A stretch of DNA of 57,514 bases from Gemmatimonas sp. (GCA_011390885.1 JAABRO010000010.1:1-57514); one strand, 5' to 3'. Numbered from the stretch's first letter, positions 13,951 to 40,302 are shown. Program-made: numbers and translations. The notes: generated by a model not told the origin, from the sequence alone.

Positions 13951-16900
13951 ATGCGACTGCGATTCCGGCTCCCCGTCTGGTTGTTGCTGGCCCTCGCCGC
14001 GCCCGCGCTTGGCCGCGCCCAGTCGTTGGGGGTGCCGGGGATCGGCGAGAACCGCGGCACCGTGCGGCTGCGCGACTACGCCGAACGACGCTTCGCCTCG
14101 TCCGATGGGCTGCAGTCGTTGGCCGTGTTCGCCGTCGAGGTGCTGCGCGACGGTTCGCTCTGGATCGGCACCAACGAAGGACCGCACCGCTTCACCGGCG
14201 GTCGGTTCGAGCAGGTGCCGCTGATCGAGGAGCACCAGCACGTGCGCGCGATCGCGCAGACTGCCGACGGCGATGTGTGGTTCGGCACACGCGTCGGGGT
14301 GCTGCGGCGGTCCCCCGACGGACGCGTCGTGAAGTACGGCGTGGCCGAGGGCGTGCCGGCCGGCACCGTGTATTCGCTGGTGCTCACCGACGCGTTTGGC
14401 GATCGGGAGGAGGTGGTGGCTGCCACCGGCGGTGGCGTGGTGCGCTTCGACGGAAGCGGCTGGCAGCCCGTGGCGCTCCCTCCGGAGATCGAACCGGCCG
14501 GCCTCGTGGTCACCCCGCGTGCGCGTCCCGGCGCACGCGACGAGCTGTGGTTGGGAAACATGCGAGGCGCGGCCGCGCGGTTCCGCGATGGCGCGTGGGC
14601 GCACGGCCCCGACGTGACCGGCGGCCTGCGCGTCGCCTCGCTGGAGCGGTTCGTGGTGGCGCAGGATTCGGTGCGCACGCTGTACGCGACCACCAACCTG
14701 GGCGTGTTCCGCTTCCTCGAGTCGGACAACGGGACGTCGGGACGGTGGGAGCGCCTGGCGGGCTCGCCGGCGTACGCATACCGACTGGCGGTGGTGCCGT
14801 TGCGTGACGGGCTGCAGGAGCTGTGGGTGGGGACGCTCGACGGGTTGCTCATGCGTCGGCGTGGAAGTACCTGGGACACCATCGCGCTGCGATCGACCGA
14901 GCCGCGCACGCCGGTGCATGCGCTCACCAGCGCGCCCGGTCATGCGGGCGGCCACGCGGTGTACGTGGGCAGCTTCGGGGACGGCCTCATCCGGCTCAGT
15001 GTGGGACGGGCGGCCACGCTGGTGTCCGAGGCCTCCGGACTGCGCTTCACCATCGGCAGTGTGCTCGAAGCGCCGCTCGGGCAGGCCGGCGTGGTCTGGC
15101 TCGCAACGAGCGACTTCGGCGTGGTCGAGGTGAACGGCGACCAGGTGCGCACGGAGATCGGTCGCGAGGCGCTCATCGACGGGCGCGCATTGACGCTGTT
15201 CAGCCGGCAGCACCGAGACGGCACGCACGAGGCCTGGATCGGTGCCGCCCTGGGCGCGTGGCGTCGTGAGGGCACCGGCTGGGTGCGGCGCATCGAGGGG
15301 CTGGGCGCCACCGCCGTCGTCCGCTTCGCCGCGGAACGGTCGGACGACCCGGAGTCACCACTGCTGGCCGCCACCGACTCGGGGCTCCGTGTCTGGCGCG
15401 GTGCACGATGGGAACGGGTGCCGGGGACGCCGGAGGCGAGCGCGCACACCGTGCTCGGCGGCACCTCCTCCGATCCGACGGTGTGGGTGGCCGGTGCCTA
15501 TGGTACGCTCGCCCGTCGTGACGGCGCATGGACGCTGGACAGCACCCTGCGTCAATCGGGGCTGTACGGGCGCGTGCGCACCATGTGCCGACTGCCCGCG
15601 AGCGAGGGAGATCGCGTGCTGATCGCGGGCGAAGGTGCCATGCTGGTGCGGGAGCGCACGGACGCGCGCTGGCGGCCGTTGCCGGAGCAGATCAGGCAGC
15701 TGCTCCCGTCGGACAACATCTACAGCATTCGTTGCGACGAACCGGCGCGCGTGCAGGTGGCGACGGTGAGTGGACTGGCGGTGCTCGACCTGCGTGGCGC
15801 TGATCCCGCGCGCTGGCGGCTCGTCACGACCCTCGGCGCTCCGGATGGGCTGCCGAGTCCCGTCATTCTGGCGATCGCGGATGGGGGCGTGCCCGGCGCG
15901 CACTGGATCGGGACGGCGCAGGGCGTCGGGCGCGTGGACCTGCCGCAGCTGGAGGAGCCGGCGCCGAGCGTGTTCACCATGCGCGTACTGGGCGCGCTGG
16001 GGAGCGACACGGTGGCCGAGGGCGCACGGCTTCCGCACGACGAGAACCTGGTGACCGTGCGGCTGGTGCTGCCCACGTTTCATCGTGAGGAAGACCTGCG
16101 GTATCGCATCGAACTCGACGGGGCACCGAGCTCGTCGAGCGGCGCGTGGCAGACGGCGAGCGAGGTGACGTTTCCGGCGCTGACTCCCGGCGACTACACG
16201 GTGCGCGCGTGGGCCCGCGATTTCACCGGTCGCGAGTACGGCCCGATCATGCACGCATTCTCGGTCGCGTATCCGCCGTGGCGCTCGCCCACCACGCTCG
16301 GCGGCCTGCTGCTCGCGCTGCTCGCCGTGCTCACGGGGGCCCACCGCTGGCGCCTGCGGTTGCTGCGCGATCGCGCGGAGGAACTCGCCGCGAGCGAGCA
16401 ACGCGCGCGGGCCAGCGAGGCGCAGTTGCGGGCGCTCTTCGATCGTGCCCACGACGCGAACCTTCTGGTGCGTGATGGTCGGGTCACGGCGGCCAATACG
16501 GCCGCGGCCAGCCTGCTCGGGCTCGAGGCGGACGCGATCGTGGGGCGGTCAATCCGCGAACTCGGGCTGGTGGCAATTCCGCCGTCCGCCGAGGCCGAAC
16601 CCTGGGAGACCGAGCTCCGGCTCGGCGAGGATCGCGCGGTGCCGATCGCGGTCACGGTCACCTCGGTCCAGCGCGACGACGGGCCGTTGCAGCACTGGGT
16701 ATGGCGCGACCTCTCCGTCGTGCGCGACGCCGAGGCAGAGCGACGGCAGCTCGAGTCGCAAGTGCGCGAAGCGCAGAAGCTCGAGTCGCTGGGCACGCTG
16801 GCCGGCGGCGTCGCGCACGACTTCAACAACCTGCTCGGCGTCATCCGCGGCAACGCCGAACTGGCGCGTGAATCGATCACCGACCCCGACGAAGTCGCCG

Positions 16901-18024
16901 ATCACCTGGCGGCCGTGCTCGACGCCAGCGAGCGGGCGCGCGACCTCGTGCGGCAGATCCTCACGTTCAGCCGGCGCACCGCGCCGCACGAAGCGGTGGT
17001 GGACCTCGGTGCGGTCGCGCGGTCGCTGGTCCCGATGCTGCGCTCGCTCATTCCCCGCTCGGTGGAGACGGTGCTGGTGGGGGGGGACGCCGTGTATCCG
17101 GTGCGCGGCGACCTCACGCAGCTGCAGCAGCTGCTCTTCAACCTGTGCAGCAACGCAGAGTATGCGATGCGGCCCACCAATGGCGGCCGCCTGGAAATGC
17201 GGCTCGAGTCGGTGGTGGCACCGGCGGGTCTCGCCTCGCCGATCGGGCGCGCGGTGGTGCTGCGCGTGAGCGACACGGGCGTGGGGATGCCCGCGGATGT
17301 GCGCGACCGGGTATTCGAGCCGTTCTTCACGACCAAGCCGACGGGCGAGGGCACGGGGCTGGGGCTGTCGGTGCTGCACGGCATCGTGGCTTCGCACGGT
17401 GGTCGGGTGTCGGTGGAGAGCACGCCGGGGGTGGGCACGACGTTCGAGGTGGTGCTGCCGATGCAGCGCGCGGAGCTCGCGATCGTGGCGGGGGGGGGGG
17501 CGGGGGCCACGCCGCTGGGCGATGGGCGCGCGAGCGGGCCGCGCGAGGTGGAGCCCCTGTCGGCGCACGAACCGGTCCGCGCCGCGGAGGGCGACGCATC
17601 GGTGTCTGCGGCGTCGGCCGATCCGCTCGTCGGCGCGCGTGTGGTGCTCGTGGATGACGAGCCTGCCGTGTCGCGTGTGATGGAGCGCGCACTCACGCGA
17701 CTCGGCTGTCGCATCCGGACGTTCAACGATCCGCGCGAGGCGCTGCGCTACCTGTCGCAGGCGGAGCAGGAGGTGGACCTGCTGCTGACCGACCAGACGA
17801 TGCCCGGGCTGACCGGCGACGACCTCGCGGCAGCCGTGCATCGCGAGCGCCCGGAGCTGCCGGTGGTGATCGTGTCCGGCTACAGCTACCGCCTCACGCC
17901 CGAGCGGCTGTCCGAGGTGGGGGCGGCGGCGGTGCTCCAGAAGCCGGTGCCGGTGGAGCAGCTGGCGCAGACGGTGCGGTCGGTGCTGCGCGACCGGACA
18001 CCGAATCCGTCGCTGGCGCGTTAA
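13951..18024 (+). CDS. Hybrid sensor histidine kinase with periplasmic beta-propeller and receiver domain
   Basis: 1357-residue one-protein two-component system. Signal peptide or signal anchor (residues 1-25); a periplasmic region of two-component-regulator propeller repeats (about 40-660, repeated DGSLWIGTNEG-like blades); a Y_Y_Y-type Ig domain (about 700-770); one membrane segment (about 780-800); PAS (about 825-920); a HisKA box with phospho-acceptor His956 in GGVAHDFNNLLG; an HATPase with DTGVGMP and EGTGLGLS; then a receiver with VDDEP and phospho-acceptor Asp1281. An 11-G run encodes the linker before the receiver. Start: ATG 13951 gives the best signal peptide; ATG 13927, overlapping the previous stop, would add eight residues. 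No separate response regulator adjoins, so output may run through phosphotransfer elsewhere. Confidence 0.93.
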   Translation: MRLRFRLPVWLLLALAAPALGRAQSLGVPGIGENRGTVRLRDYAERRFASSDGLQSLAVFAVEVLRDGSLWIGTNEGPHRFTGGRFEQVPLIEEHQHVRAIAQTADGDVWFGTRVGVLRRSPDGRVVKYGVAEGVPAGTVYSLVLTDAFGDREEVVAATGGGVVRFDGSGWQPVALPPEIEPAGLVVTPRARPGARDELWLGNMRGAAARFRDGAWAHGPDVTGGLRVASLERFVVAQDSVRTLYATTNLGVFRFLESDNGTSGRWERLAGSPAYAYRLAVVPLRDGLQELWVGTLDGLLMRRRGSTWDTIALRSTEPRTPVHALTSAPGHAGGHAVYVGSFGDGLIRLSVGRAATLVSEASGLRFTIGSVLEAPLGQAGVVWLATSDFGVVEVNGDQVRTEIGREALIDGRALTLFSRQHRDGTHEAWIGAALGAWRREGTGWVRRIEGLGATAVVRFAAERSDDPESPLLAATDSGLRVWRGARWERVPGTPEASAHTVLGGTSSDPTVWVAGAYGTLARRDGAWTLDSTLRQSGLYGRVRTMCRLPASEGDRVLIAGEGAMLVRERTDARWRPLPEQIRQLLPSDNIYSIRCDEPARVQVATVSGLAVLDLRGADPARWRLVTTLGAPDGLPSPVILAIADGGVPGAHWIGTAQGVGRVDLPQLEEPAPSVFTMRVLGALGSDTVAEGARLPHDENLVTVRLVLPTFHREEDLRYRIELDGAPSSSSGAWQTASEVTFPALTPGDYTVRAWARDFTGREYGPIMHAFSVAYPPWRSPTTLGGLLLALLAVLTGAHRWRLRLLRDRAEELAASEQRARASEAQLRALFDRAHDANLLVRDGRVTAANTAAASLLGLEADAIVGRSIRELGLVAIPPSAEAEPWETELRLGEDRAVPIAVTVTSVQRDDGPLQHWVWRDLSVVRDAEAERRQLESQVREAQKLESLGTLAGGVAHDFNNLLGVIRGNAELARESITDPDEVADHLAAVLDASERARDLVRQILTFSRRTAPHEAVVDLGAVARSLVPMLRSLIPRSVETVLVGGDAVYPVRGDLTQLQQLLFNLCSNAEYAMRPTNGGRLEMRLESVVAPAGLASPIGRAVVLRVSDTGVGMPADVRDRVFEPFFTTKPTGEGTGLGLSVLHGIVASHGGRVSVESTPGVGTTFEVVLPMQRAELAIVAGGGAGATPLGDGRASGPREVEPLSAHEPVRAAEGDASVSAASADPLVGARVVLVDDEPAVSRVMERALTRLGCRIRTFNDPREALRYLSQAEQEVDLLLTDQTMPGLTGDDLAAAVHRERPELPVVIVSGYSYRLTPERLSEVGAAAVLQKPVPVEQLAQTVRSVLRDRTPNPSLAR
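17490..17500 (+). repeat. Homopolymeric G11 tract inside the hybrid kinase gene
   Basis: Eleven consecutive G, a C, then five more G (17502-17506) encode the Ala-Gly-Gly-Gly-Ala-Gly linker (IVAGGGAGATP) between the kinase and receiver domains. Reading the other frames shows that gain of one G would end translation at 17657 and loss of one at 17680. Either change removes the receiver but keeps the whole kinase. Confidence 0.85.
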
Positions 18025-18029
18025 CTCTC

Positions 18030-18539
18030 ATGATCGCCAATCTGCTTCCGCTGCTCGGCTGGATCTTCGGCACGTTCCTCGCGTCCCTCGGCGCGGTGGT
18101 GACGGCCGACGCGGCGGCGCGCTTCTACCTGCAGCTCGACCGTCCGCGGTGGGCTCCGCCCGCGTGGCTGTTCGGCCCCATGTGGTCGCTGCTGTACGTG
18201 CTCATGGCGGTGGCGGCGTACCGGGTGTGGCGGCTCGACGGCTGGTCCGGCGCGCAGCTGGAGCTCGGGCTGTACGTGGTGCAGCTGGTGCTGAACGCCG
18301 CGTGGTCGTGGTTCTTCTTCGTGCGGCGCACGGGGCTCGGGAGCACGATCGAGGCGGCGATGCTCTGGACGGGTGTGGCGGCCACGATGGTGGTGTTCTG
18401 GCAGCGGGACACGCTGGCCGGTGTGCTGTTCGTGCCGTACATCGCCTGGGTGAGTGTCGCCTTGGCGCTCACGATCTCGGTGTGGCGGCGCAATCCGTCG
18501 CTGCTGGGCGGGCAGGGCACAGGGGCCGTCCGCGCCTGA
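18030..18539 (+). CDS. tspO: TspO/MBR-family tryptophan-rich sensory protein
   Basis: 169 residues with five predicted membrane helices and the family's aromatic-rich loops: RPRWAPPAWLFGPMWSLLYVLMA after helix 1 and the AAWSWFFFVRR segment in helix 3. TspO proteins bind porphyrins and related tetrapyrroles or lipids and act in stress and tetrapyrrole control (Rhodobacter) or membrane stress responses. The gene starts 5 bases after the hybrid kinase stop, which places it in the same transcript; the kinase may regulate or be modulated by it, but this is inferred from position only. Confidence 0.93.
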   Translation: MIANLLPLLGWIFGTFLASLGAVVTADAAARFYLQLDRPRWAPPAWLFGPMWSLLYVLMAVAAYRVWRLDGWSGAQLELGLYVVQLVLNAAWSWFFFVRRTGLGSTIEAAMLWTGVAATMVVFWQRDTLAGVLFVPYIAWVSVALALTISVWRRNPSLLGGQGTGAVRA

Positions 18540-18814: not shown

Positions 18815-18820
18815 GTGCGC

Positions 18821-19351
18821 ATGCTCGACGCCCTCGAACGCCGCCCGTCGCCGCGCCACGGATTCGGCGTGTACGCCACCGCTCCGATCCGCCGTCACGC
18901 CCTCGTGATCGAGTACACCGGCGAACTCGTGTCGCACGACGAAGCGGAGCGGCGCTACCCGACCAACGACGCCGCCCGGGATGCGGAGCACACCTACGTG
19001 CTGCAGCTGGATGACGCGCGCGTGATCGATGCGAACGTGGGCGGCAACGAGGCGCGCTTCATCAACCACTCGTGCGCGCCCAACCTCGAGCCGATCGCCA
19101 TTGGCGACCATCTCTGGCTCGTGGCGCTGCGGGACATCGCGGCGGGCGAGGAGCTGGGGTACGACTACGCCATCGAGCTGGACACGCCGCACAGGCCGGC
19201 GGCGAAGCGACGGTTTCCGTGTACCTGCGGCGCACCGACCTGTCGCGGCACGCTGCTGCGGGCCAAGCGCACCCCCATGAGCGCCGCGTCGAAGGCGGCA
19301 CACCGCGCCGTGGCGGCACAGCTGCGCGCGCTCGAGGCGGAGACGGACTAG
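18821..19351 (+). CDS. SET-domain protein (putative protein-lysine methyltransferase) with post-SET motif
   Basis: 176 residues from ATG 18821 (a GTG at 18815 would add two). The SET fold is complete: GFGVYATAPIRRHALVIEYTGELV, the SAM/knot motif RFINHSCAPN near residues 83-92, and ELGYDYAIE. It is followed by a post-SET-like zinc motif CTCGAPTCRG, a Cys cluster that in eukaryotic enzymes completes the substrate channel. SET proteins transfer methyl from S-adenosylmethionine to lysine side chains; bacterial targets are mostly unknown (chlamydial NUE and Legionella RomA modify host histones, others act on own proteins). A free-living bacterium suggests a self target. Convergent with ugd: both stop codons lie on one CTAG. 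Confidence 0.88.
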   Translation: MLDALERRPSPRHGFGVYATAPIRRHALVIEYTGELVSHDEAERRYPTNDAARDAEHTYVLQLDDARVIDANVGGNEARFINHSCAPNLEPIAIGDHLWLVALRDIAAGEELGYDYAIELDTPHRPAAKRRFPCTCGAPTCRGTLLRAKRTPMSAASKAAHRAVAAQLRALEAETD

Positions 19352-20517
19352 AAATCCCCGCCGAACAGGTCGCGCGTGTACACCTTCTCGCGCACGTCGT
19401 CGAGCGCGGTGCTCACGCGGTTGGCCACGATGAGGCAGCTGTCCCGCTTGAACCGGTCGAGGCAGGGTTCCACGCGGCTGTTGAAGAACGAGGGCGCCGC
19501 CAGCACCGGCTCGTGCACGATCACGTCGATACCGCGCGCCTTGATGCGCTTCATGATGCCCTGCACGCTCGAGGTGCGATAGTTGTCCGAGCCGGCCTTC
19601 ATGACCAGGCGATAGATCCCCACCACCTTCGGCTTCCGGCGGATGATCTCGCGCGCGATGAAGTCCTTGCGCGTGCTGTTCGACTCCACGATCGCGCGAA
19701 TGAGCGTCTGCGGCACGTCCAGCGAGTTGGCCAGCAGCTGTTTCGTGTCCTTGGGCAGGCAGTAGCCACCGTAGCCGAACGACGGGTTGTTGTAGTGATG
19801 TCCGATGCGCGGGTCGAGCCCGACGCCGTCGATGACCGGACGCGGGTCGAACTCATGGCAGGCGGCGAAGCTGTCGAGTTCGTTGAAGAACGCCACGCGC
19901 ATCGCCAGGTACGTGTTCGAGAACAGCTTCACCGATTCGGCTTGCGTGGCCGACATGAGGCGCACCGGCACGTCGTCGGCCAGCGCGGCGTCGCGCCAGA
20001 GCGCGGCGATGCACTCGGCGTGCTCTGACGGGCCGCCCACGATGATGCGCGACGGGTGCAGGCTGTCATGCAGCGCCTTCCCCTCGCGCAGGAACTCCGG
20101 CATGAACCAGAGCGGCGCACCGTCGAGCGATGCGCTGAGCTTGTCGGTGAACCCTACCGGCACCGTGGAGCGGATCACGATGCGCGCGTCAGGATTCACG
20201 GCGCGCGCCGCGTGCACGACCTGCTCCACCGAACTCGTGTCGAAGTAGTTCGACTCCGGATCGTAGTCGGTGGGCGTGGCCACCACGACGAGCTCCGCGT
20301 GAGAGTACGCCGAGCGCGCGTCGAGGGTGGCCTCGAGGTCGAGCGTCTCGTGCGCGAGCATGCGCTGCAGCTCGGGGTCGGCGATCGGGCTCTGGCGCGC
20401 GTTCACGAGCGCCACCTTCTCGGGCACGATGTCGAGGGCCACGACCTGGTGCCGCTGTGCGAGCAGCACCGCGTTGGAGAGGCCGACGTAGCCGGTGCCC
20501 ACCACGGTGATGCGCAT
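19348..20517 (-). CDS. ugd: UDP-glucose 6-dehydrogenase, short enterobacterial-type
   Basis: 389 residues. Oxidises UDP-glucose to UDP-glucuronate with two NAD+ in the cytosol. N-terminal Rossmann motif VVGTGYVGLSNA, STVPVGFT, EFLREGKAL, then the catalytic Cys253 in FGYGGYCLPKDTKQL and the FFNELDSFA helix. Length and residue numbering match the short E. coli/Klebsiella Ugd (388 residues, Cys253), and many blocks look near-identical to it from memory. Third gene of a pap2-GT4-ugd operon, 5 bases from the glycosyltransferase. UDP-GlcA would feed that glycosyltransferase or surface glycan synthesis. Confidence 0.95.
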   Translation of the reverse strand: MRITVVGTGYVGLSNAVLLAQRHQVVALDIVPEKVALVNARQSPIADPELQRMLAHETLDLEATLDARSAYSHAELVVVATPTDYDPESNYFDTSSVEQVVHAARAVNPDARIVIRSTVPVGFTDKLSASLDGAPLWFMPEFLREGKALHDSLHPSRIIVGGPSEHAECIAALWRDAALADDVPVRLMSATQAESVKLFSNTYLAMRVAFFNELDSFAACHEFDPRPVIDGVGLDPRIGHHYNNPSFGYGGYCLPKDTKQLLANSLDVPQTLIRAIVESNSTRKDFIAREIIRRKPKVVGIYRLVMKAGSDNYRTSSVQGIMKRIKARGIDVIVHEPVLAAPSFFNSRVEPCLDRFKRDSCLIVANRVSTALDDVREKVYTRDLFGGDF

Positions 20518-20522
20518 GCCGG

Positions 20523-21761
20523 TCAGCTCGCCCGCTCGTGGGCACGAAGGCGCAGGCCGCGCGACGGCTTTACTGCGCCCGACCGGCCGGTCGTGGGCCG
20601 GGCCGCCGCGCGCGTGGCGATCGGACCGTCGCTGATCGCGGCGCCGTACGCGCCGAAGAGGTCGTCCCAGATGCGCGACCAGCCGCGCCGCAGCGCCTCC
20701 TGCCGGCCGGCGGAGGCGAGCTGGTGGCGCCGCATCGGGTCGTCCATCAGCGCGCGCACGGCGGCAGTGATCGCGGATGCGGAGCGCACGTCCACCGGAA
20801 GCGCCGTGCCGGCGTGCGCGAACTCCGCGGTCGGGCCGTCGTGGTGCGAGACCACGGCCACCCCAGACGCCATCGCCTCGAGCACCACGTTGCCGAACGT
20901 CTCGGTCGTGGACGGGAAGAGGAAGACGTCGGCGCAGGCGTAGAACTCGGCGAGCGCCGCGCCCTCCAGCCGCCCCAGGAAGGTGGTGCCGAGTGGCGCG
21001 CTCGCGCGCAGCCGCTCTTCGGCCGGTCCGTCCCCCACGAGCGCGAAGTGCACGCGATCCCGGGCGCCCGCGAGCAGTGGCGCCATGGCGGCCATCGCGG
21101 TGTCGATGCCCTTCTCCGGCGCGAGGCGCCCCACGTACGCGACGAGGCAGGTGTCGCGCGTGCAGCCAAGGCGCGCACGGAGCGCGTCGGAGCGATGTGC
21201 CGGAGAGAAGCGGTCGGCGTCGATGCCGCGCCCCCACACGCGCACGCCGCGAAAGCCGTTGGCCTCGACCTGACGGGCCACGTCGTGCGTGGGGACGAAC
21301 GTGCGACGGCCACCGTTGTGGAACCAGCGCAGGAACGGCCATGACACGACGTCGAGCGCCTGCAGGCGGTAGTGCTCGAGGTAGGCCGAGAAGTGCGTGT
21401 GGTACGACGTGACGAGCGGCAGTCCGAGCGCCCGCGCCGCCTGTCGGCCCGACAGGCCGATGCCGAAGGGCGTGGCCGCATGCACGAGCGTGGGACGGAA
21501 GGCGGCGAGCCGCTCGCGGGCGCGCGCCGCAGACGGTGACGCCATGTGGAGCTGCGGATACGCCCAGAACGGGCGCGCGGGCCAGCGTTCGATGCCGGGG
21601 AGGCGATCGTCGGCGTCCGCATCCTCCGGTGTGATCACCAGCGTTTCCACGCCGCGCCGGTGACACTCGGCGACCAGTCGGTCGAGCGTGCGCGCCACGC
21701 CGTTGACCTGTGGCACCCACGTGTCAGTGAACAGGGCGAGCCGGTCGAGGGTCAGCGGCAT
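20523..21761 (-). CDS. GT4-family glycosyltransferase, MgtA/SqdX/PimB-like
   Basis: 412-residue retaining glycosyltransferase of the GT-B fold. The start LALFTDTWVPQVNGVARTLDRL is the signature of the subfamily that includes glycolipid synthases (SqdX, glucuronosyl/glucosyl-diacylglycerol synthases, MgtA) and mannosyltransferases. The donor site shows VAYVGRLAPEKGIDTAMAAM, LVGDGPAEERL and the E-x7-E block in TETFGNVVLEAMASG. The first 10 bases of its coding sequence overlap the end of the PAP2 gene, and ugd follows 5 bases after its stop. This neighbourhood (diacylglycerol maker, transferase, UDP-GlcA maker) suggests a glycolipid product. Sugar and acceptor are inference; mannosylation is an alternative. 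Confidence 0.9.
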   Translation of the reverse strand: MPLTLDRLALFTDTWVPQVNGVARTLDRLVAECHRRGVETLVITPEDADADDRLPGIERWPARPFWAYPQLHMASPSAARARERLAAFRPTLVHAATPFGIGLSGRQAARALGLPLVTSYHTHFSAYLEHYRLQALDVVSWPFLRWFHNGGRRTFVPTHDVARQVEANGFRGVRVWGRGIDADRFSPAHRSDALRARLGCTRDTCLVAYVGRLAPEKGIDTAMAAMAPLLAGARDRVHFALVGDGPAEERLRASAPLGTTFLGRLEGAALAEFYACADVFLFPSTTETFGNVVLEAMASGVAVVSHHDGPTAEFAHAGTALPVDVRSASAITAAVRALMDDPMRRHQLASAGRQEALRRGWSRIWDDLFGAYGAAISDGPIATRAAARPTTGRSGAVKPSRGLRLRAHERAS

Positions 21762-22276
21762 GCCTGCACCCCGATGGCGGTGAGCACCGCGAGCGCCTGA
21801 CCGGCGAGCACGTCGCCAGGGTAGTGCACGCCGAGCCGCACGCGGCTCATGCCCACGAGCACGCCGAGCGCGAGGATGGGGCTGGCCGCTGCCGGAAAGG
21901 CCGCGGCATACGCCAGGGCGACCGACATCGCGGCGCAGGCATGGCCCGACGGGAACGAGAAGCGATCCGGGCTGTCCACGTGCCAGTGGCCTCCCTCCGA
22001 CACGGAGGGGCGGGGACGCGTGGCCGTACGCTTGGCGACCTGCACCAGCAGGTGCGAGAGCAGCAGCGTCCAGGCGCCGTCCACGGCGGCGGCGTGCCAC
22101 GAGCCGCTTGCGAACAGCAGCGGCAGCAGCACGAGCAGGACCGTGGCGGTGGCGCCGCCGAGGTGCGTGAGGGCGGTCCACCACAGGCGCGAGAGCGCGC
22201 GGGCCTCGCGCGCCAGCAGCAGGTAGCGGTATACCGCGCGATCGTGCGAATCGAGTCGGGCCAGGAGCGGCAGCAT
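21752..22276 (-). CDS. PAP2-family membrane phosphatase
   Basis: 174-residue integral membrane phosphatase of the type 2 phosphatidic-acid phosphatase family. All three motifs are in order: KRTATRPRP, PSGHACAAM and SRVRLGVHYPGDVLAG, with the catalytic His residues in the second and third. About five hydrophobic helices surround them. Family substrates are phosphatidic acid, phosphatidylglycerophosphate or undecaprenyl diphosphate. First gene of a tight three-gene leftward operon with a GT4 transferase (10-base overlap) and ugd, which favours a role supplying diacylglycerol or recycling a lipid carrier for glycosylation. Confidence 0.92.
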   Translation of the reverse strand: MLPLLARLDSHDRAVYRYLLLAREARALSRLWWTALTHLGGATATVLLVLLPLLFASGSWHAAAVDGAWTLLLSHLLVQVAKRTATRPRPSVSEGGHWHVDSPDRFSFPSGHACAAMSVALAYAAAFPAAASPILALGVLVGMSRVRLGVHYPGDVLAGQALAVLTAIGVQACR

Positions 22277-22458: not shown

Positions 22459-24831
22459 TCACTGCACGCGGAAGAGCCAGCTCAGCTTGGTGAAGAACAC
22501 GTCGCTGGTGCGACGGAGTCGTTCGGGACCGGCCGGCTGGTCGGCGCGCAGGAGGTCGCCGTAGCCGAGGTAGAGTACGGTGCCCGGTGTGGGCAGCCAT
22601 GAGAAAAGCACGTCGATGCGCGCCGTCTGCCTCGTAAAGGCGAGGGCCGGCGCGAGCGTGCCGTCGGCGCGCGCGAAGAAGACCGGTAGCTCGGTGCGCG
22701 TGTCGTCGCGCAGGTCGTCCTGGTCGAGCTCCGTGTGTTCGGCGATCACGCGCAGGAACGTGGTGCGCGTGGCCTGGTATTCGGCGCGCAGCCGCTTGGT
22801 GTTGCGGAGCTGCACCCGCGTGCCGTCGCTCCACCGCTTGAACTCGTCCTGGTTGAAGGTGAGTCCGAGGCGCAGCTGCTCGGTGGGGCGCAGGTTGAGC
22901 GTGCCCGACATGTTGCCGATGCGCGCCGAACTCCACTCCGGGAAGTTCTCGTCGCGTCCGAGGATCGCGACGGCGCTGAACGAGAAGCGCCGGAACTCCG
23001 GTGTGGCCACGGACATGACGAAGTCGAGGTTCGGCAACCGGGGCGTGCCCGCGTAGCGCGTCGTGTCCACGCCTCCGCTGGCGCGCGGGCGGAGCAGCCG
23101 GTAGTTGTCATACAGCGCCGGATCGTAGCCGAACTCCTCGAGGAGCACCTGGCCACCGAGCTGCCAGCCGCCACGGAACCGCGTGTTCGAGCGCAGGTGC
23201 AGCTGCACGTCCTGGGCGCTGCGGCGGCGCACGAGATCGTTGTACTGCCAGCGTCCCAGCATGTAGACCTCGGGCACGAACGCCTCGACGAGCGCGCCCG
23301 GGGCGCCGAAGCGCGTGTAGCGGTGCGTGGCCGACAGGTTGGCAATGCCCGGGCGCGCGATGAACCCGGATTGCGCATCGAAGTCGGGGCTGATGCCGTT
23401 GAAGGCGTACCGCGCGTAGAACCGCCGGCCGGTGAGCATGGCCGACATGTCCCAGAGCGGCGCACGATCGCTCGCGCTGTCGCGGCCGGTGAAGCTGCCG
23501 GCCACCTGTCCCTGCGCGCTGAAGATGCCGCGCACGAAGCGCCCGTCCACCCCGAGCACGCGATTCCAGTCGTCACCGTCGACCTTGTCGGTGTACACGA
23601 CGCCAAGTCGGCTGTTGCTCCCGACATCCCGTTGCAGGCGCAGGATGTTGAAGAGCGGATTGGTGCGACCGTCGGCCGAGGTCTCGCGGCTGTCCATGGC
23701 GGAGAGCACGCCGATGTCGAAGCCGCCGTGCTTGCCGGTGAGCTTGGCGGCGGCGACGGGCTGCACCACGCGGCGCGTGTAGATGAGCCGGTTGGGCGCG
23801 GTGAACTGCTCCTGGCTCTCGAGGAAGAACGGCCGCCGCTCGGGGAAGAAGATCGCGACGCGCGGATCGTACGCGAACTGCGTGGCATCCGCCTCGACCT
23901 GCGAGAAGTCGGGGTTGGCCGTGCCGGCGAGCGTGAGGTTGCTGGTGATGCCCCAGCGCGCGCTGCCACCGAACTCGGGACGTGATCGCGTGTAGCGCCA
24001 GTCCGTGCCGCCGGGCTGCGGGCTGCCGAGCGCGTTCGCCGTGACGGTGGGAATCAGGTCCACCGTGATGCCGCGGCGCAGGTCGCGCAGCCCCACAAGG
24101 TGGCCGGCCTGGGCGAGGAAGCTGGCGGCCGCGCGCGATGCCGGTGCCCAGCTCTGTTCGCGCCCCGTGGCCTGCACGGTGCGCACCACGTGCAGCTGCC
24201 ACTGCTGCTCGTCGCCGGCCCGGTAGCGCAGGCTCTTGAAGGGGATGGCGATCTCCACCACGTACCCCTCCTCCGTGAGCTGTCCCTTGGACTGCCACAC
24301 GTAGTCGGGGGCCAGGTCGGCCGTTTCGCGCGAGCGCGGGGTACTGCTCGCGAAGCCGCCGCCGGAGGCCGCGCCGGTCTCGGCCAGCACGCCGTCGGAC
24401 TGGATGCCGAACGGGTTGACGCCGAAGACGAGCGCCTGCCGGCTGTCACCGTAGGTACCGAGAAAGAACTGGAGGTTGTCGTCCTGCGTGATGCGGTCGC
24501 GCTCCGCGAGTGTGGCGCGCACCGTGCCCGGGGTCGCGAACGCGCGAATGCCGAGGTGCAGCGCCGTGGGCGAATACCACACACGCACCTCGGTGCTGTC
24601 CTCGGCCGCAACCCCGTCGTTGGGGAAGTACTGCGAGAAGCCGGTCAGCAGCGCCGCGTCGCGCCAGGCCGCCTCATCGAGCACCCCGTCCACGACGATC
24701 GTGTGTTCGAGGCGCGGCGTGGCGACCGTGGTGCCACCGCAGCGGCCGTGGAAGACGGGGTTGGACGGTGACGCGGGGGGCGTCGCCGCAGCGCCCGCGA
24801 GCGCAGCGCAGAGCAGCTGGGCGACGATCAT
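22459..24831 (-). CDS. DUF5916 outer-membrane protein with N-terminal CBM9-like domain
   Basis: 790 residues. Short signal peptide (about 1-22), then a family 9 carbohydrate-binding-like beta-sandwich (about 40-220, with VVDGVLDEAAWRDA, VRVWYSPTALHLGIRAF and VFGVNPFGIQSDGV). After it comes the DUF5916 beta-barrel region, with FSQVEADATQFAYDPRVAIFFPERRPFFLESQEQFT as its hallmark and Arg/aromatic-rich strands to the end (FFTKLSWLFRVQ). This architecture is common in Bacteroidota and Gemmatimonadota and is thought to be an outer-membrane protein of unknown function. It starts 6 bases after a small beta-barrel gene, so the two are co-transcribed. A second, 874-residue homologue is at 35055-37679. 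Confidence 0.9.
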   Translation of the reverse strand: MIVAQLLCAALAGAAATPPASPSNPVFHGRCGGTTVATPRLEHTIVVDGVLDEAAWRDAALLTGFSQYFPNDGVAAEDSTEVRVWYSPTALHLGIRAFATPGTVRATLAERDRITQDDNLQFFLGTYGDSRQALVFGVNPFGIQSDGVLAETGAASGGGFASSTPRSRETADLAPDYVWQSKGQLTEEGYVVEIAIPFKSLRYRAGDEQQWQLHVVRTVQATGREQSWAPASRAAASFLAQAGHLVGLRDLRRGITVDLIPTVTANALGSPQPGGTDWRYTRSRPEFGGSARWGITSNLTLAGTANPDFSQVEADATQFAYDPRVAIFFPERRPFFLESQEQFTAPNRLIYTRRVVQPVAAAKLTGKHGGFDIGVLSAMDSRETSADGRTNPLFNILRLQRDVGSNSRLGVVYTDKVDGDDWNRVLGVDGRFVRGIFSAQGQVAGSFTGRDSASDRAPLWDMSAMLTGRRFYARYAFNGISPDFDAQSGFIARPGIANLSATHRYTRFGAPGALVEAFVPEVYMLGRWQYNDLVRRRSAQDVQLHLRSNTRFRGGWQLGGQVLLEEFGYDPALYDNYRLLRPRASGGVDTTRYAGTPRLPNLDFVMSVATPEFRRFSFSAVAILGRDENFPEWSSARIGNMSGTLNLRPTEQLRLGLTFNQDEFKRWSDGTRVQLRNTKRLRAEYQATRTTFLRVIAEHTELDQDDLRDDTRTELPVFFARADGTLAPALAFTRQTARIDVLFSWLPTPGTVLYLGYGDLLRADQPAGPERLRRTSDVFFTKLSWLFRVQ

Positions 24832-34071: not shown

Positions 34072-35073
34072 ATGACCGACCCGCTCGCGACGCTGCCCAG
34101 CCTGGCCACCCTGCGTGAGGCGCAGGTCATCGTGCGCCGTGCCTTCGCGTCCACGCCGCAGTACCGGTGGCCACTGCTCGAGGCGCGCGCGGGCGGTCCC
34201 GTGTGGATCAAGCACGAGAACCACACGCCGGTGGGCGCCTTCAAGGTGCGCGGCGGGCTCGTGTACCTCGAGCGCCTGCGCGCCAGCCACCCCGACGCGC
34301 CCGGCCTCGTCTCCGCCACGCGCGGCAATCACGGCCAGTCGCTGGCGTATGCGGCACGCGACGCCGGCATTCCGGTTGCCATCGTGGTGCCGGAGGGGAA
34401 CAGCCGCGAGAAGAATGCCGCCATGCGCGCGCTCGGTGCGGAGGTCATCGAGACGGGGGCGGACTTCCAGGCGGCGGTCGAGGCGTCGATGGTGCTGGCC
34501 GCAGAGCGTGGCTGGCTGCGCGTGCCGAGTTTCCACCTGGATCTCGTGGCGGGCGTGGGGACCTGGGCGCTCGAACTGCTGGAGGCGGTGCCGGACCTGG
34601 AGCGCCTCTACGTGCCGATCGGGCTCGGCAGCGGGCTGTGTGGTGCGATCGCCGCACAGCGCGCCCTCGGCCACCGGGTGGAGTTCGTGGGCGTGGGCTC
34701 GGTGCACGCGCCGGCGTACGCGCGCTCGATTGCGACGGGCACGCTCACCTCGCACGCCGTGAGCACCGAGCTCGCCGACGGCATGGCGGTCCGCACGCCC
34801 GACCCATCAGCGCTCGCGATCATGCGCGCGGCGGGGGTGCGCGTGGTCGAGGTGGACGACGGGCAGGTCGCGCACGCGATGCGGGCATTCTTCGCCGACA
34901 CGCACAACGTGGCCGAGGGCGCGGGCGCCGCCGGGCTCGCGGCCCTGCTCGCCGACCCGGAGCGGCGGGCCGGCGAGTGCGTAGGCACGGTGCTGTGTGG
35001 CGGCAACGTGGACAGCGATCTCTTCGCCCGCGTGCTCACCGGCTTCGACGGCGCTCAGCGGCCGAACCAGTAG
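34072..35073 (+). CDS. PLP-dependent threonine/serine dehydratase-like enzyme
   Basis: 333 residues, fold type II PLP enzyme. The Schiff-base Lys58 is in ENHTPVGAFKVRGG (more often SFK-x-RG). The Ser/Gly loop ATRGNHGQSLAYAA and the phosphate-binding GLGSGLCGAIAA follow. There is no ACT regulatory domain, so it resembles catabolic threonine ammonia-lyases or serine/3-hydroxyaspartate dehydratases; the exact amino acid is open. ATG 34072 has GGAG at 34061. Its last 19 bases overlap the convergent DUF5916 gene end (35055-35073), so the two transcripts are antisense at their 3' ends. Confidence 0.88.
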   Translation: MTDPLATLPSLATLREAQVIVRRAFASTPQYRWPLLEARAGGPVWIKHENHTPVGAFKVRGGLVYLERLRASHPDAPGLVSATRGNHGQSLAYAARDAGIPVAIVVPEGNSREKNAAMRALGAEVIETGADFQAAVEASMVLAAERGWLRVPSFHLDLVAGVGTWALELLEAVPDLERLYVPIGLGSGLCGAIAAQRALGHRVEFVGVGSVHAPAYARSIATGTLTSHAVSTELADGMAVRTPDPSALAIMRAAGVRVVEVDDGQVAHAMRAFFADTHNVAEGAGAAGLAALLADPERRAGECVGTVLCGGNVDSDLFARVLTGFDGAQRPNQ

Positions 35074-37679
35074 CTCGCCTTCACCAGGAACGTGTTGTTC
35101 GGCGCAGATCCGAACAGGTTGCCGACATCGCGCGAGAGGTCGAAGGAGCCCGCGTCGACCCCGGACTGCGACCGTCCCTGCTGCCACACGAAGAAGAGCG
35201 TGCTGCCGGGCCGATACTCCCAGCGTGCCACCACGTTCGAACGGAACTCCTTCACATTGAAGCCGCCGGGATCGCCGTCGTACGGGGTGAAGCGGGCGTC
35301 GTAGTCCGTGGCGCGCGGGTCGGCGAGCTGGCGCCAGTTGGTGAAGCGTCCCGTGGTGATGAAGGGCTGCGCGTACACCTGCAGCGAGAGGGTGGGGGAC
35401 GCCGTCACGTCGAAGCGCGCGGTCAGGCTGTGCGTGTGCTGGTCGAGCGTGGCGAAGGTGTACGCCGTGCCATCGGCACCCGCTGCGCCCACGTTGCCCA
35501 CCCACTGCCAGTCGCGCACCGCGCGTCCCGAGTTCACCGACACGCTCCCCTGCACGCGACTCGAACCGCGAAACTGCACGCGTGGACCGGCGCTCACGTT
35601 CCACGAGCGGCCACCGTCGCCGAGTCCCCAGTTGAGGCTCAGCCCGGGCACGATCGGACGGCGGCCGTCGGTGTCGAGGCCGGACCAGCCGAACACGCCG
35701 GCGTTGCGTCGCACCGCCGGCCCGCCACGCGCGGCGCGGTCGTCGAAGGCGGGGAGCAGGTTCTCCACGCCGATGCCCGCGTACACGTTCCAGAAGTTCG
35801 CGAGCTCGGCGTTGCCGTTCACGTTGCCGCCGTGATTGAGCGGCAGGCCGGCGGTGTTCCAGCTCGCCCACTGGTTCACGTTCACGCCGAAGCGGCGGAA
35901 GCGCGCGGTGGGTTGCAGCGAGAAGAGCTGCCCCCAGGCGTACTGCGACTGGATGTCGCTGCGCGTGAGGAAGCCCACGTCGTTGATCTCGAACCCCGCG
36001 CTCTTGCGCTGGTATCCCATCGCGAAGCGCGTGCGTCCGCCGCCCACCTTGCGCAGCGACAGCTCGCCGGCCGTTCCGTTCAGCGCGGTGCGCGTGTCGT
36101 CGACGGTGAGTGCGCCATCTGGACGCATGTACGCGTGCACGAGGCTGCGCTGCGTGCGCGACATCGCGGCCGTGTCGCCACGCACATGGCTCGCCGCGAG
36201 AAAGCCCGACACCTCGAACCGGTTGCCCCCGAAGCGGTGGCGCGCGTCCAGTCCGCCCGACCACGCGCTGCGACGCAGGTAGGGTGTGCTCCAGTCGTCG
36301 AGCGCGCGCTGCACGCCCGTGGCCATCACGCCGACCACGCTGTTGCCGCCCCGCAGCTCCTGCACCGCGCGCGCCACCATGTAGTTGGTCTGCGGTTCGG
36401 CGGTGCGTCCCTGGGCGCCGTTCGTGCGTCCCGTCACGGCGTCGAGCACGCCGATGGACAGACCGCTCGGCAGGCGGCCCGTCATCTTCGCGGCGCCGAG
36501 GATGGGTGAGAACTGCGACGTCGCATTGTCGCCGTGCAGGCCGGCCAGCTGCGGGGCGCGACCGATGCGTCGCGGATAGAAGAGCCCCGTGCACTGGCCG
36601 TCGTTGCAGTCGATGTCGTAACGGAAGATGCCCACTCCCTCGATGAAGAACGGCCGCCGTTCCTGGAAGAACTGCTCGAACGCCGAGAGGTTGAGCACGG
36701 CGGGATCGGCCTCGACCTGGCCGAAGTCGGGGTTCACCGTGGCGTCGATGGTGAAGTTCGCGCCCAGCCCGTACTTCACGTCGAGGCCGGCGGCGTGCTC
36801 CTGCGCGCGGCTGGCGTCGCGCAGCGGCCCGTTGCCGCGCAGCCGCGTGACGTTGCGCTCCACGAGGTACGGACGGATCTCGAGCCGGCGCGATCGCGGC
36901 AGGCCCGCGAAGCCGCCCAGCTCACCGAACTGCGACACCACCCCCACGCGGGAGCGACGCAGCAGCGGCCACGAATACCGCTCGCCGCGCCGCTGCACTT
37001 CGCGCAGCACGAGGATGCCGAAGGTGTGCTCCGGCTGGTCGGGGAAGCGCAGCTGGTTGAGTGGAATGCGGAACTCCGCCGACCAGCCGAGGCTGTCCAC
37101 CACGGTCTTCGCATCCCAGACGGCGTCCCACGTGAGGTCCTCGACGCCATCGTTGTAGACGTACCAGTCGCGCTGCACGCCCGCGGGATTGATCATGAAC
37201 GCGTAGCCCGTGCGCTTGTCGAGGTACGAATCGATCATGATCGCGATGTAATCCGACGGCGTGCGTTGGTCGCGCCGGCTGAGCAGGCCGACGATCGAAT
37301 CCGGGGATGGATCGAATGCGCGCACGTGGAGGTAGAGATGAGAGTCGTCGTAGACGACTCGCGCCTCGGTCGCGAACGCCGGATCGCCGTCTTCGTTCGG
37401 CTGCATCTCGCGGAATGCCTCGATGACCGGCGCGCCGCGCCAGGCCAGTTCGCGGTCGATGCCGTCGAGCTCCATGGGCGTTCGGGTGCGGAACGCGGTC
37501 ACCAGCCGGTCGGTCGCCCGCGACGCAGGCGCGCGATTCGCCGCATCCAGCACGAGGGAGGGCTCGGTGCGCGCCGCGACGGACGAGGGCTGCGCCTGCG
37601 CGCGCGCCGAGGCCGAGACGGTCAGCACGATCGTGGCGAGCAGCGCGGTGACCGTGTAGGGACGAATTCGGGTGATCAT
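35055..37679 (-). CDS. DUF5916 outer-membrane protein with CBM9-like domain (second copy)
   Basis: 874 residues. Signal peptide (about 1-28, ASARAQA), N-terminal CBM9-like sandwich (about 60-220, with MELDGIDRELAWRGA and LYLHVRAFDPSPDS), then the DUF5916 block with PDFGQVEADPAVLNLSAFEQFFQERRPFFIEG and a pair of Cys in a short loop (DCNDGQC) and a barrel region ending FLVKASYWFGR. Same architecture as the 22459-24831 gene but longer and divergent; the shared block is easily aligned by eye. ATG 37679 starts the signal peptide although the frame extends upstream. Divergent from tamA. Function unknown; probably an outer-membrane conduit or sensor. Confidence 0.9.
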   Translation of the reverse strand: MITRIRPYTVTALLATIVLTVSASARAQAQPSSVAARTEPSLVLDAANRAPASRATDRLVTAFRTRTPMELDGIDRELAWRGAPVIEAFREMQPNEDGDPAFATEARVVYDDSHLYLHVRAFDPSPDSIVGLLSRRDQRTPSDYIAIMIDSYLDKRTGYAFMINPAGVQRDWYVYNDGVEDLTWDAVWDAKTVVDSLGWSAEFRIPLNQLRFPDQPEHTFGILVLREVQRRGERYSWPLLRRSRVGVVSQFGELGGFAGLPRSRRLEIRPYLVERNVTRLRGNGPLRDASRAQEHAAGLDVKYGLGANFTIDATVNPDFGQVEADPAVLNLSAFEQFFQERRPFFIEGVGIFRYDIDCNDGQCTGLFYPRRIGRAPQLAGLHGDNATSQFSPILGAAKMTGRLPSGLSIGVLDAVTGRTNGAQGRTAEPQTNYMVARAVQELRGGNSVVGVMATGVQRALDDWSTPYLRRSAWSGGLDARHRFGGNRFEVSGFLAASHVRGDTAAMSRTQRSLVHAYMRPDGALTVDDTRTALNGTAGELSLRKVGGGRTRFAMGYQRKSAGFEINDVGFLTRSDIQSQYAWGQLFSLQPTARFRRFGVNVNQWASWNTAGLPLNHGGNVNGNAELANFWNVYAGIGVENLLPAFDDRAARGGPAVRRNAGVFGWSGLDTDGRRPIVPGLSLNWGLGDGGRSWNVSAGPRVQFRGSSRVQGSVSVNSGRAVRDWQWVGNVGAAGADGTAYTFATLDQHTHSLTARFDVTASPTLSLQVYAQPFITTGRFTNWRQLADPRATDYDARFTPYDGDPGGFNVKEFRSNVVARWEYRPGSTLFFVWQQGRSQSGVDAGSFDLSRDVGNLFGSAPNNTFLVKASYWFGR

Positions 37680-37985: not shown

Positions 37986-40301
37986 GTGATCGACCGCTCA
38001 CACGCCACCACGCATCGCGCCGGGTCGCACCGCCTGCCGGGTCACCGGTCGCGGCGGCGACGCGGCCTGTTGCGTCTGGTTGCGTCGCTGCTGCTCGTCG
38101 TCCCGGCGACGGCCGTGCAGGCCCAGGGCGCGGCCCGCTGCGCCACGGGGCAGGAGGTGCGCGACGTCACGATTCGTGGCTCGCAGATCGAGGCCGACGA
38201 GGTGCTGACCGTGCTTGCCACGCAGCGCCCGACGCTGGCCAACCGCCTGCTGCGACTCGGCTCGGCGGCGTGCGTGGACTCCCTGCAGCTCGAGCAGGAC
38301 GCGCTGCGCATCGCGGTGCTGCATCGTCAGCGCGGCTGGTTCACCGCGCAGGTTCGCCCCGTCGTCCTCGACGACCCGCGCGGGCGGGCGGTGCGCTTCG
38401 ATGTCACGCCGGGCCCGGTGGCCACCATCGACTCGGTGGTGGTGGACGGCTTGCCGACCACGGTGAACCCCAACCTCGCCGCGCCGCTCACGGCGCTCGA
38501 CGGGGCGTCGTTCGATCGGGTGCGCGTGCAGGCCGCCACCGATCTCGTCGTGACGCGGCTGCAGGATGCCGGCTTCGCGCGCACGCGCCAGCCGGCCAGC
38601 ACGATCACGATCGACACGACGGCGGCGACCGTCGCGCTGCGCTTCTCCTTCGAACCGGGACTCGCACTGCGCGTCGGCCGCATCGCCGTGGAGATCGCCC
38701 CGGTGCCTCGGCGCGGTCCGCGCTTCGACTCCGCCGAGGTGCTGGCGCTGGCCGGACTGCGCGCCGGTGTGGGCTATCGCGCCAGCGACGTGCTCGCCGC
38801 CCAGCGCGCGCTCTATCGCACGGAGGCGTTCGGCCTCGTGCTCATCGACACGGTCACGCCGCCCGCCGATCGGGCCGACTCCACCATCGACCTGCGCGTC
38901 AGCGTGTCCGAGGCGCGCACGCGCAGCGCGCGTGTGGGCGCCGGCTGGGGCACGCTCGAGTGCGGCCGCGTGCAGGGACGCATCACGGATCGCGGCTTCC
39001 TCGGCCCCGGCCGTCGCGTCGAACTCACCGCCCGGGCATCGCGCCTTGGCATCGGGGCGCCGGTGGACCAGTTCCCGGGGCTCTGTCCGCAGTTCCTGCG
39101 CGACGATCCGTACAGCCAGGAGCTCAACTACCACGTGGGGGTCGCGCTCACCAACGCGACGTTCTTCGGCCTGCCGATCGCGCCGACGCTCGACGTGTAC
39201 AGCGAGCGGCGCGGCGAGTACAACGCCTTCCAGCAGGAAACGGACATCGGCGTGGGCGTGGCGCTGTCGAAGGCGCTCACCGCGCGCACGCTGCTCAGCG
39301 TGGGTGCCGAGTTCGAGTCGGGACGCATCGTCACCGACGCGGTGCTCGCGTGCGTGCGCTTCGCGCTCTGCCAGCCCGCCGACTTCGCGCTCGCGCGGCA
39401 GGGGAACACCACGCAGGCGCTCAACGTGACGTGGCTGCACGACCGCGTCGGGCAGTCGCAGGACCCGCGCTACGGCGGCCGGTTGCGCGTGGACGCGCGC
39501 GTCGGCTCGACGAGCTTCGGCGGCGTGGGCGCGGAGGGGGACAGCAGCAGCCGCTACGCCTTCTATCGGCCCACGGTGGAGGCGACGGGGTTCACGCGTT
39601 TCCTCGGTGGAACGGTCGCGGCACGCATGCAGTGGTCGCAGGTGTACGCGCCCAATGCGTTCACCGTGAGCGGCGTGCCGTTCCTTCCGCCGCAGGAGCG
39701 GCTCTTCTCGGGCGGGCAGAACTCCGTGCGCGGCTACCAGCAGAACCTGCTCGGTCCCGTGGTCTATCGGGTGAACCGGGCGAGCGTCGACTCGGTGCCG
39801 TTCGGTGACAGCTTCCAGCTCGTCGTGCGTCCCGACGCCGTGACGCGCCTGCCCTCGCCGGAGGGCGGCACCGGCTCGCTGCTCGCCAACCTCGAATATC
39901 GCCGCCGCTTCGGCCGCCTCACCGAGTCGCTGCAGTGGGCGTTCTTCGTGGACGCCGGCACGGTGTGGGCCACGGGCGTGGCCCCGTTCTCGGTGCGCGA
40001 AGTGCGGGCCACACCGGGCGTTGGCGTGCGGTTGGATACGCCGCTCGGGCCGTTCCGCGTGGACATCGGCTACAATCCGCGGCGCGCGGAGCCCGGCAAG
40101 GCCTTCCTGTTCGATGCCGTCGCGCGGGCGGGCGCTGCCCCGGTACCGTACGTGATCTGCGTGAGTCCGGGGCAGGAGGCCACCTTCGAGCAGCAGGTGG
40201 AGGCGGGCGGCTTCGGCTGCCCGCGCACCTTCCGGCCGACTTCCAGCCGCAGCACGCTCTCGCGGCTCGTCTTCCACTTCAGTCTCGGGCAGGCGTTCTA
40301 G
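37986..40301 (+). CDS. tamA: TamA-like Omp85-family outer-membrane assembly protein
   Basis: 771 residues. Signal peptide (about 1-47, ending VQAQ), three POTRA-type repeats (about 50-330, each with a DSVVVDGLP- or VRDVTIRGS-like strand), then an Omp85 barrel with the lid loop FSGGQNSVRGYQQN, the strand GVGVRLDTPLGPFRVDIGYNP, and a terminal Phe. TamA works with TamB to insert autotransporter-like proteins or move phospholipid to the outer membrane; tamB follows after 1 base. GTG 37986 is picked because GGGAGAG lies about 10 bases before it; GTG 37923 would add 21 residues. Longer than E. coli TamA (577) and with extra Cys-bearing strands. Confidence 0.9.
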   Translation: MIDRSHATTHRAGSHRLPGHRSRRRRGLLRLVASLLLVVPATAVQAQGAARCATGQEVRDVTIRGSQIEADEVLTVLATQRPTLANRLLRLGSAACVDSLQLEQDALRIAVLHRQRGWFTAQVRPVVLDDPRGRAVRFDVTPGPVATIDSVVVDGLPTTVNPNLAAPLTALDGASFDRVRVQAATDLVVTRLQDAGFARTRQPASTITIDTTAATVALRFSFEPGLALRVGRIAVEIAPVPRRGPRFDSAEVLALAGLRAGVGYRASDVLAAQRALYRTEAFGLVLIDTVTPPADRADSTIDLRVSVSEARTRSARVGAGWGTLECGRVQGRITDRGFLGPGRRVELTARASRLGIGAPVDQFPGLCPQFLRDDPYSQELNYHVGVALTNATFFGLPIAPTLDVYSERRGEYNAFQQETDIGVGVALSKALTARTLLSVGAEFESGRIVTDAVLACVRFALCQPADFALARQGNTTQALNVTWLHDRVGQSQDPRYGGRLRVDARVGSTSFGGVGAEGDSSSRYAFYRPTVEATGFTRFLGGTVAARMQWSQVYAPNAFTVSGVPFLPPQERLFSGGQNSVRGYQQNLLGPVVYRVNRASVDSVPFGDSFQLVVRPDAVTRLPSPEGGTGSLLANLEYRRRFGRLTESLQWAFFVDAGTVWATGVAPFSVREVRATPGVGVRLDTPLGPFRVDIGYNPRRAEPGKAFLFDAVARAGAAPVPYVICVSPGQEATFEQQVEAGGFGCPRTFRPTSSRSTLSRLVFHFSLGQAF

Positions 40302-40302
40302 C

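Follow-up and report, generated by a model that had tools for sequence, protein, structure and literature searches.

We analyzed a 57,514-nt stretch of Gemmatimonas sp. DNA (GCA_011390885.1, JAABRO010000010.1:1-57514; contig C10), hereafter the window, and found three intact, tightly packed genes on its minus strand, which encode, in this order, a PAP2-superfamily phosphatase (PAP2), a glycosyltransferase of family GT4 (referred to here as GT4) and a UDP-glucose 6-dehydrogenase (Ugd). We infer every reaction of the pathway proposed below, and consider it probable that the operon by itself encodes a route leading to an anionic glucuronosyl glycerolipid, whose likeliest form is α-glucuronosyl-diacylglycerol (GlcA-DAG). 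The window belongs to a 4.07-Mb, 95%-complete genome of a soil-type bacterium of the family Gemmatimonadaceae. The three genes are as follows:

21752-22276, minus strand: PAP2-superfamily lipid phosphatase (174 amino acids; PF01569, 3.5e-20; three catalytic motifs; PDB relatives PgpB and LpxE)
20523-21761, minus strand: GT4 glycosyltransferase, putative UDP-glucuronate:diacylglycerol glucuronosyltransferase (412 amino acids; Pfam matches; 35% identity with Agt2; GTcp residues; GT-B model)
19348-20517, minus strand: UDP-glucose 6-dehydrogenase (Ugd), short E. coli/Streptococcus type, predicted UDP-glucuronate maker (389 amino acids; PRK15057 and TIGR03026; PDB 3pid/3phl)

The PAP2 and GT4 genes overlap by 10 nt and a gap of 5 nt separates GT4 from ugd, an operon-like spacing. 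A preliminary description of the window had reported three overlapping or nearly touching genes in this order, which the coordinates bear out exactly, and its names for the products agree with the Pfam and NCBIfam matches.

In the proposed pathway, Ugd would convert UDP-glucose to UDP-glucuronate, as its strong homology suggests, and PAP2 would convert phosphatidate to diacylglycerol, the acceptor. GT4 would then transfer α-glucuronate to diacylglycerol with retention, yielding GlcA-DAG, to judge from its residues, its relatives and its recurrent linkage. PAP2 would in this way fill the place that the phospholipase PlcP holds in the PlcP-Agt pathway.

Recurrence of the operon in related and unrelated genomes

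The linkage of PAP2, GT4 and Ugd is not due to chance, because it recurs in both related and unrelated genomes. Across Gemmatimonadaceae, PAP2-GT4 is a common and widespread pair, often accompanied by a type-I phosphodiesterase gene upstream and a divergent second GT4 gene (GT4B), or by a third GT4 gene (GT4C). The short ugd was found in 3 of 148 genomes of the family, the same three being its carriers among 395 genomes in a sample of the phylum, and in all of them (the window genome, G137 and G024) it directly follows the same GT4. The preliminary description had treated the trio as a unit; the wider unit is the PAP2-GT4 pair, whereas Ugd is a rare local addition. In G024, which belongs to the same genus, the order is PAP2-GT4-ugd, followed by the same convergent SET-domain gene that in the window (18815-19351) overlaps the tail of ugd by 4 nt. 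Only a contig break within ugd interrupts this arrangement, with residues 1-27 after GT4 at one contig end and residues 135-389 opening another contig. The GT4s of the short-ugd genomes form one clade (support 100/100). A GT4 of the same clade occurs near a contig end in G120, where neither a long nor a short ugd was found; we would expect a short ugd right after that break. In our first GT4 tree the row G048_C was a duplicate of G048_A, which left the U clade unaffected.

Outside the family, we scanned genomes for GT4 homologues and retained the 80 best loci, which are not a random sample; 63 of these were in Bacillota, with full-length GT4s 33-44% identical to that of the window. PAP2 lay directly upstream of the GT4 homologue in 24 of the 63 Bacillota loci and a TuaD-type Ugd directly downstream in 16, both being present in 8 and neither in 31. 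The position of Ugd was nearly constant, as 16 of the 17 Bacillota Ugd genes within ±5 kb sat just downstream of GT4. The five downstream dehydrogenases that we tested scored best against the TuaD model, below its cut-off, and therefore represent a type not orthologous to the short Ugd. Mapped onto the GT4 tree, Ugd linkage required 11 gains or losses, of which 8 were forced by well-supported branches. For example, Geosporobacter carries PAP2-GT4-Ugd-GalU, with galU above its cut-off, so that enzymes leading from glucose-1-phosphate to UDP-glucuronate stand in a row. In the Bacillota metagenome-assembled genome Bu80, GT4-Ugd (without PAP2) is followed by homologues of a UgtP-like diglucosyl-diacylglycerol synthase and an LtaA-like glycolipid flippase, both below cut-offs.

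These results indicate that the trio arose on more than one occasion, with dehydrogenases from different families, which strengthens the glycolipid reading of the preliminary description. The complete trio is kept in G024 and 8 Bacillota loci, and GT4-Ugd in G137 and 8 further Bacillota loci; Robertmurraya siralis is one of the Bacillota that carry the trio.

Two other arrangements were observed among the Gemmatimonadaceae loci. A conserved operon of a PF01663 type-I phosphodiesterase, PAP2 and GT4A, divergent from GT4B, was found in many genomes (L039 7871-10421 and similar loci) and may act on phospholipids to free diacylglycerol or phosphatidate. GT4C-DUF2334-GT4A clusters occurred at L070 (3014-6098), L076-L078 and L086; here DUF2334 scored 156.8 bits against the N-acetylglucosaminyl-phosphatidylglycerol (GlcNAc-PG) deacetylase model (cut-off 280), and GT4C about 219-236 bits against the GlcNAc-PG synthase model (cut-off 480). 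It is possible that these clusters encode an aminolipid pathway resembling that of glucosaminyl-phosphatidylglycerol, perhaps with a link to the 'aminolipid' reported for G. groenlandica (PMC7844134).

GT4 is predicted to be a retaining enzyme related to Agt and GTcp

GT4 appears to be a retaining GT-B enzyme related to Agt and to GTcp, the latter of which makes GlcA-DAG (PMC8231724). It matched the Pfam families Glyco_transf_4 (1.3e-31) and Glycos_transf_1 (9.4e-28) and contains the Ex7E motif, and its GRLAPEKG and FPSTTETFG are close variants of the UDP-sugar motifs of Agt/GTcp-type synthases (GRVAxEKN and FPSxTDTFG). An AlphaFold2 model gave a confident GT-B fold (mean pLDDT 91.4), for which Foldseek ranked UDP-bound BshA and MshA first and PimB' behind them, all of them distant. 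Mutation of ten residues kills GTcp, namely His104, Arg163, Arg190, Lys195, Asp256, Thr257, Phe258, Gly259, Glu264 and Trp320 (PMC8231724). When mapped through the alignment of Agt1 and Agt2 and motif spacing, not the GTcp sequence itself, all ten were kept in GT4, Asp256 as Glu (H121, R178, R212, K217, E287, T288, F289, G290, E295 and W361).

As references we used proteins from plasmid-collection records and identified each through its genomic neighbors, that for Agt2 lying beside plcR, phospholipase C and cerN and that for Agt1 beside a PlcP-type gene. We take the former to be PA0842, and presume that a third reference, located inside menD-...-menG of Tsukamurella (L157), is MgtA. GT4 shared 35% identity over 389 residues with Agt2, including ETFGNVVLEA, and 34% with the MgtA-type protein, so that overall identity is not decisive. 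Positions 121, 290 and 291, however, are Gln, Cys and Gln in MgtA-type proteins, whereas across GT4 and 77 related proteins they are His (77/78), Gly (78/78) and Asn (78/78), as in Agt2. The tree likewise split MgtA from the window GT4 group, Agt and GT4B (support 95/91), and the window group fell on the Agt side, yet formed a group of its own next to Agt and GT4B. Of the 'SqdX/MgtA-type' transferase named in the preliminary description, the GT4 group thus holds, but the MgtA type gives way to the Agt side. The best NCBIfam match of GT4 was the GlcNAc-PG synthase GpgS (NF053787), at 135.3 bits against a cut-off of 480, and TuaC was a weak match.

Ugd and the supply of UDP-glucuronate

Ugd matched the E. 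coli-type UDP-glucose 6-dehydrogenase model PRK15057 (NCBIfam) over its full length with 558.7 bits, below the cut-off of 757, and exceeded the cut-off of the nucleotide-sugar-dehydrogenase subfamily TIGR03026. Its match to crystal structures of UDP-glucose 6-dehydrogenase (3pid/3phl) spans 388 of 388 residues, and it contains the Rossmann motif GTGYVG and the catalytic motif GYGGYCLPKD. Of the 148 family genomes, 132 carried a long TuaD-type UDP-glucose dehydrogenase; it was absent from all 3 short-ugd genomes compared with 13 of the 145 others (Fisher P = 0.001). In this gene DISPLACEMENT, the short E. coli-type ugd has replaced the long TuaD-type ugd in the window genome (G000), G024 and G137.

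The window genome has just one further full dehydrogenase of the family, which has UDP-N-acetylhexosamine types as its best specific models and lies beside a DegT-type aminotransferase gene, a label given from reading the sequence. Because the long ugd is absent and this other dehydrogenase fits UDP-N-acetylhexosamine models best, the operon Ugd, the only canonical UDP-glucose dehydrogenase found, would, within the limits of a genome that is 95% complete, be the one enzyme providing UDP-glucuronate. This status can be read in two ways, as that of an enzyme supplying GT4 with its donor or as that of a housekeeping gene that has moved.

Alternative donors, acceptors and products

Several observations weigh against GlcA-DAG as the product. 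Identity to the MgtA-type protein is as high as that to Agt2. The Glu at the position of GTcp Asp256, which Agt2 has too, corresponds to the D256E change that costs GTcp more than 90% of its activity (PMC8231724), and Thr162, implicated in the GTcp acceptor site, is Gly in GT4 and variable across the group. Agt-type enzymes can also accept UDP-glucose or UDP-galactose (PMC8231724), and the related GpgS uses phosphatidylglycerol as its acceptor (PMC12713373); neither donor nor acceptor is therefore fixed by family. In addition, GT4s of the short-ugd clade occur in G086 and G126 without an adjacent ugd, and G. groenlandica has a related GT4 cluster, yet no dominant glycolipid was reported; its dominant lipids in standard culture were phosphatidylethanolamine, an aminolipid and diphosphatidylglycerol (PMC7844134).

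We consider it unlikely that the product of GT4 is a neutral glycolipid (glucosyl- or galactosyl-diacylglycerol), with ugd a relocated housekeeping gene whose UDP-glucuronate is used elsewhere. The confinement of the short ugd to genomes without the long one and the unlinked GT4s of G086 and G126 would agree with such a relocation, and Agt1 is specific for UDP-glucose (PMC8528852). However, a different UDP-glucose dehydrogenase has repeatedly come to occupy the same slot in Bacillota, and GT4 shares ETFGN with Agt2, which uses UDP-glucuronate, whereas PlcP-linked Agt1-type relatives carry DTYG or DTFG there.

PAP2 retains all three motifs of its family (Kx6RP at 82, PSGH at 109 and SRx5Hx3D at 144), and B. 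subtilis PgpB and LpxE are its nearest solved structures. We propose a phospholipid as its substrate, in the simplest case phosphatidate, which would yield diacylglycerol; this dephosphorylation is the weakest step of the pathway, since the PAP2 family also acts on phosphatidylglycerophosphate and undecaprenyl diphosphate. The models nearest to this PAP2 are phosphatases for these two substrates, all of them weak matches. GT4 might accordingly glucuronosylate another lipid, such as phosphatidylglycerol, a ceramide or a polyprenol, beside a PAP2 acting on one of those two substrates, a reading that we regard as quite unlikely. The best NCBIfam matches, GlcNAc-PG synthase for GT4 and the undecaprenyl-diphosphatase SepP for PAP2 (47.5 bits, cut-off 250), point in that direction, as does Caulobacter Sgt1, which glucuronosylates ceramide (PMC6445935), but these NCBIfam scores are all far under their cut-offs. 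Moreover, GT4 and its Bacillota homologues keep Arg178, the counterpart of the diacylglycerol-contacting Arg163 of GTcp, whereas the GpgS-like paralogue GT4C has Leu there, and neither a deacetylase nor a flippase gene adjoins the operon.

Surface polysaccharide pathways often include Ugd and PAP2 genes, and the weak TuaC match would suit a GT4 that builds a glucuronate-containing glycan while PAP2 recycles the undecaprenyl carrier. This seems very improbable: the neighbours sampled in the window and at most Bacillota loci were unrelated genes, which disfavors a polysaccharide cluster, and an initiating transferase, polymerase and flippase were not found in the stretches scanned. Finally, a GDP-mannose-dependent mannosyltransferase of the MgtA type, for which the 34% identity and the best PDB sequence match, PimB' (GDP-mannose), could be cited, is hardly credible given the absence of the Gln/Cys/Gln signature and the position of MgtA on the other side of the tree.

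The preliminary description had seen in the trio the acceptor, catalyst and donor of a glucuronosyl glycolipid, and our results support that reading: at the sequence level the transferase has the catalytic His and ETFGN of Agt2 and lacks the Gln/Cys/Gln of MgtA-type enzymes that use GDP-mannose, and the trio recurs outside this genome. The product and the PAP2 substrate are still predictions.

Regulation and neighboring genes

The same description had suggested a phosphate-saving role. No E. coli-type Pho box was found by the operon, and the window contained 3 weak matches compared with 4.5 expected by chance, although a divergent box is possible; this role is therefore unsupported. In a scan for sigma-70 promoters, none turned up in front of PAP2.

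The window also encodes two DUF5916 proteins whose function is unknown (22459-24831 and 35055-37679); the gene of the first is oriented like PAP2, upstream of it, and shows 84% conservation in G024. Beside a TspO/MBR gene lies one for a large hybrid histidine kinase (13984-18539) that contains Reg_prop propeller repeats, and neighboring Omp85-type and TamB-type genes (38070-44862) likely specify a translocation and assembly module. An Rfam scan returned tRNA-Pro as its sole match.

Discussion

The closest counterpart of GT4 is P. aeruginosa Agt2 (PA0842), a UDP-glucuronate:diacylglycerol glucuronosyltransferase that synthesizes GlcA-DAG (PMC8528852). Both are GT4 enzymes with the same catalytic His and ETFGNVVLEA; however, the Agt2 gene adjoins plcR and a phospholipase C gene and carries a Pho box (PMC8528852), whereas the partners in the window are PAP2 and Ugd, and no Pho box was seen. 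The operon also resembles the PlcP-Agt/GTcp pathway (PMC8231724, PMC8528852), in which a lipid phosphoester hydrolase gene adjoins that of a GT4 sharing all the essential residues but Thr162 with the window GT4, but the operon has PAP2 in place of the metallophosphoesterase PlcP, its own donor enzyme and Glu for Asp256. MgtA shares the GT4 subgroup and differs at the three signature positions. The glucosaminyl-phosphatidylglycerol pathway GpgSDF (PMC12713373) has a GT4 of the same broad group, with a model that the window GT4 does not approach, and the window operon lacks its deacetylase and flippase. Agt-type glycolipid synthesis is known, and the new elements are PAP2 in the place of PlcP and the operon's own donor enzyme. 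In the open-access literature, we found no paper describing a PAP2-GT4-Ugd lipid operon.

We see an even chance that this one-operon route, which would provide both acceptor and donor with PAP2 instead of PlcP, is an unrecognized membrane-lipid pathway of Gemmatimonadota and many Bacillota, into which Ugd was recruited repeatedly from different families. GlcA-type lipids alter membrane charge, and in P. aeruginosa they protect against polymyxin B (PMC8528852). If the proposed pathway is correct, it would provide candidate acidic-glycolipid genes for two phyla without such genes in the literature searched, tie PAP2 phosphatases to glycolipid synthesis, and make glucuronate-containing lipids predictable from a simple gene signature.

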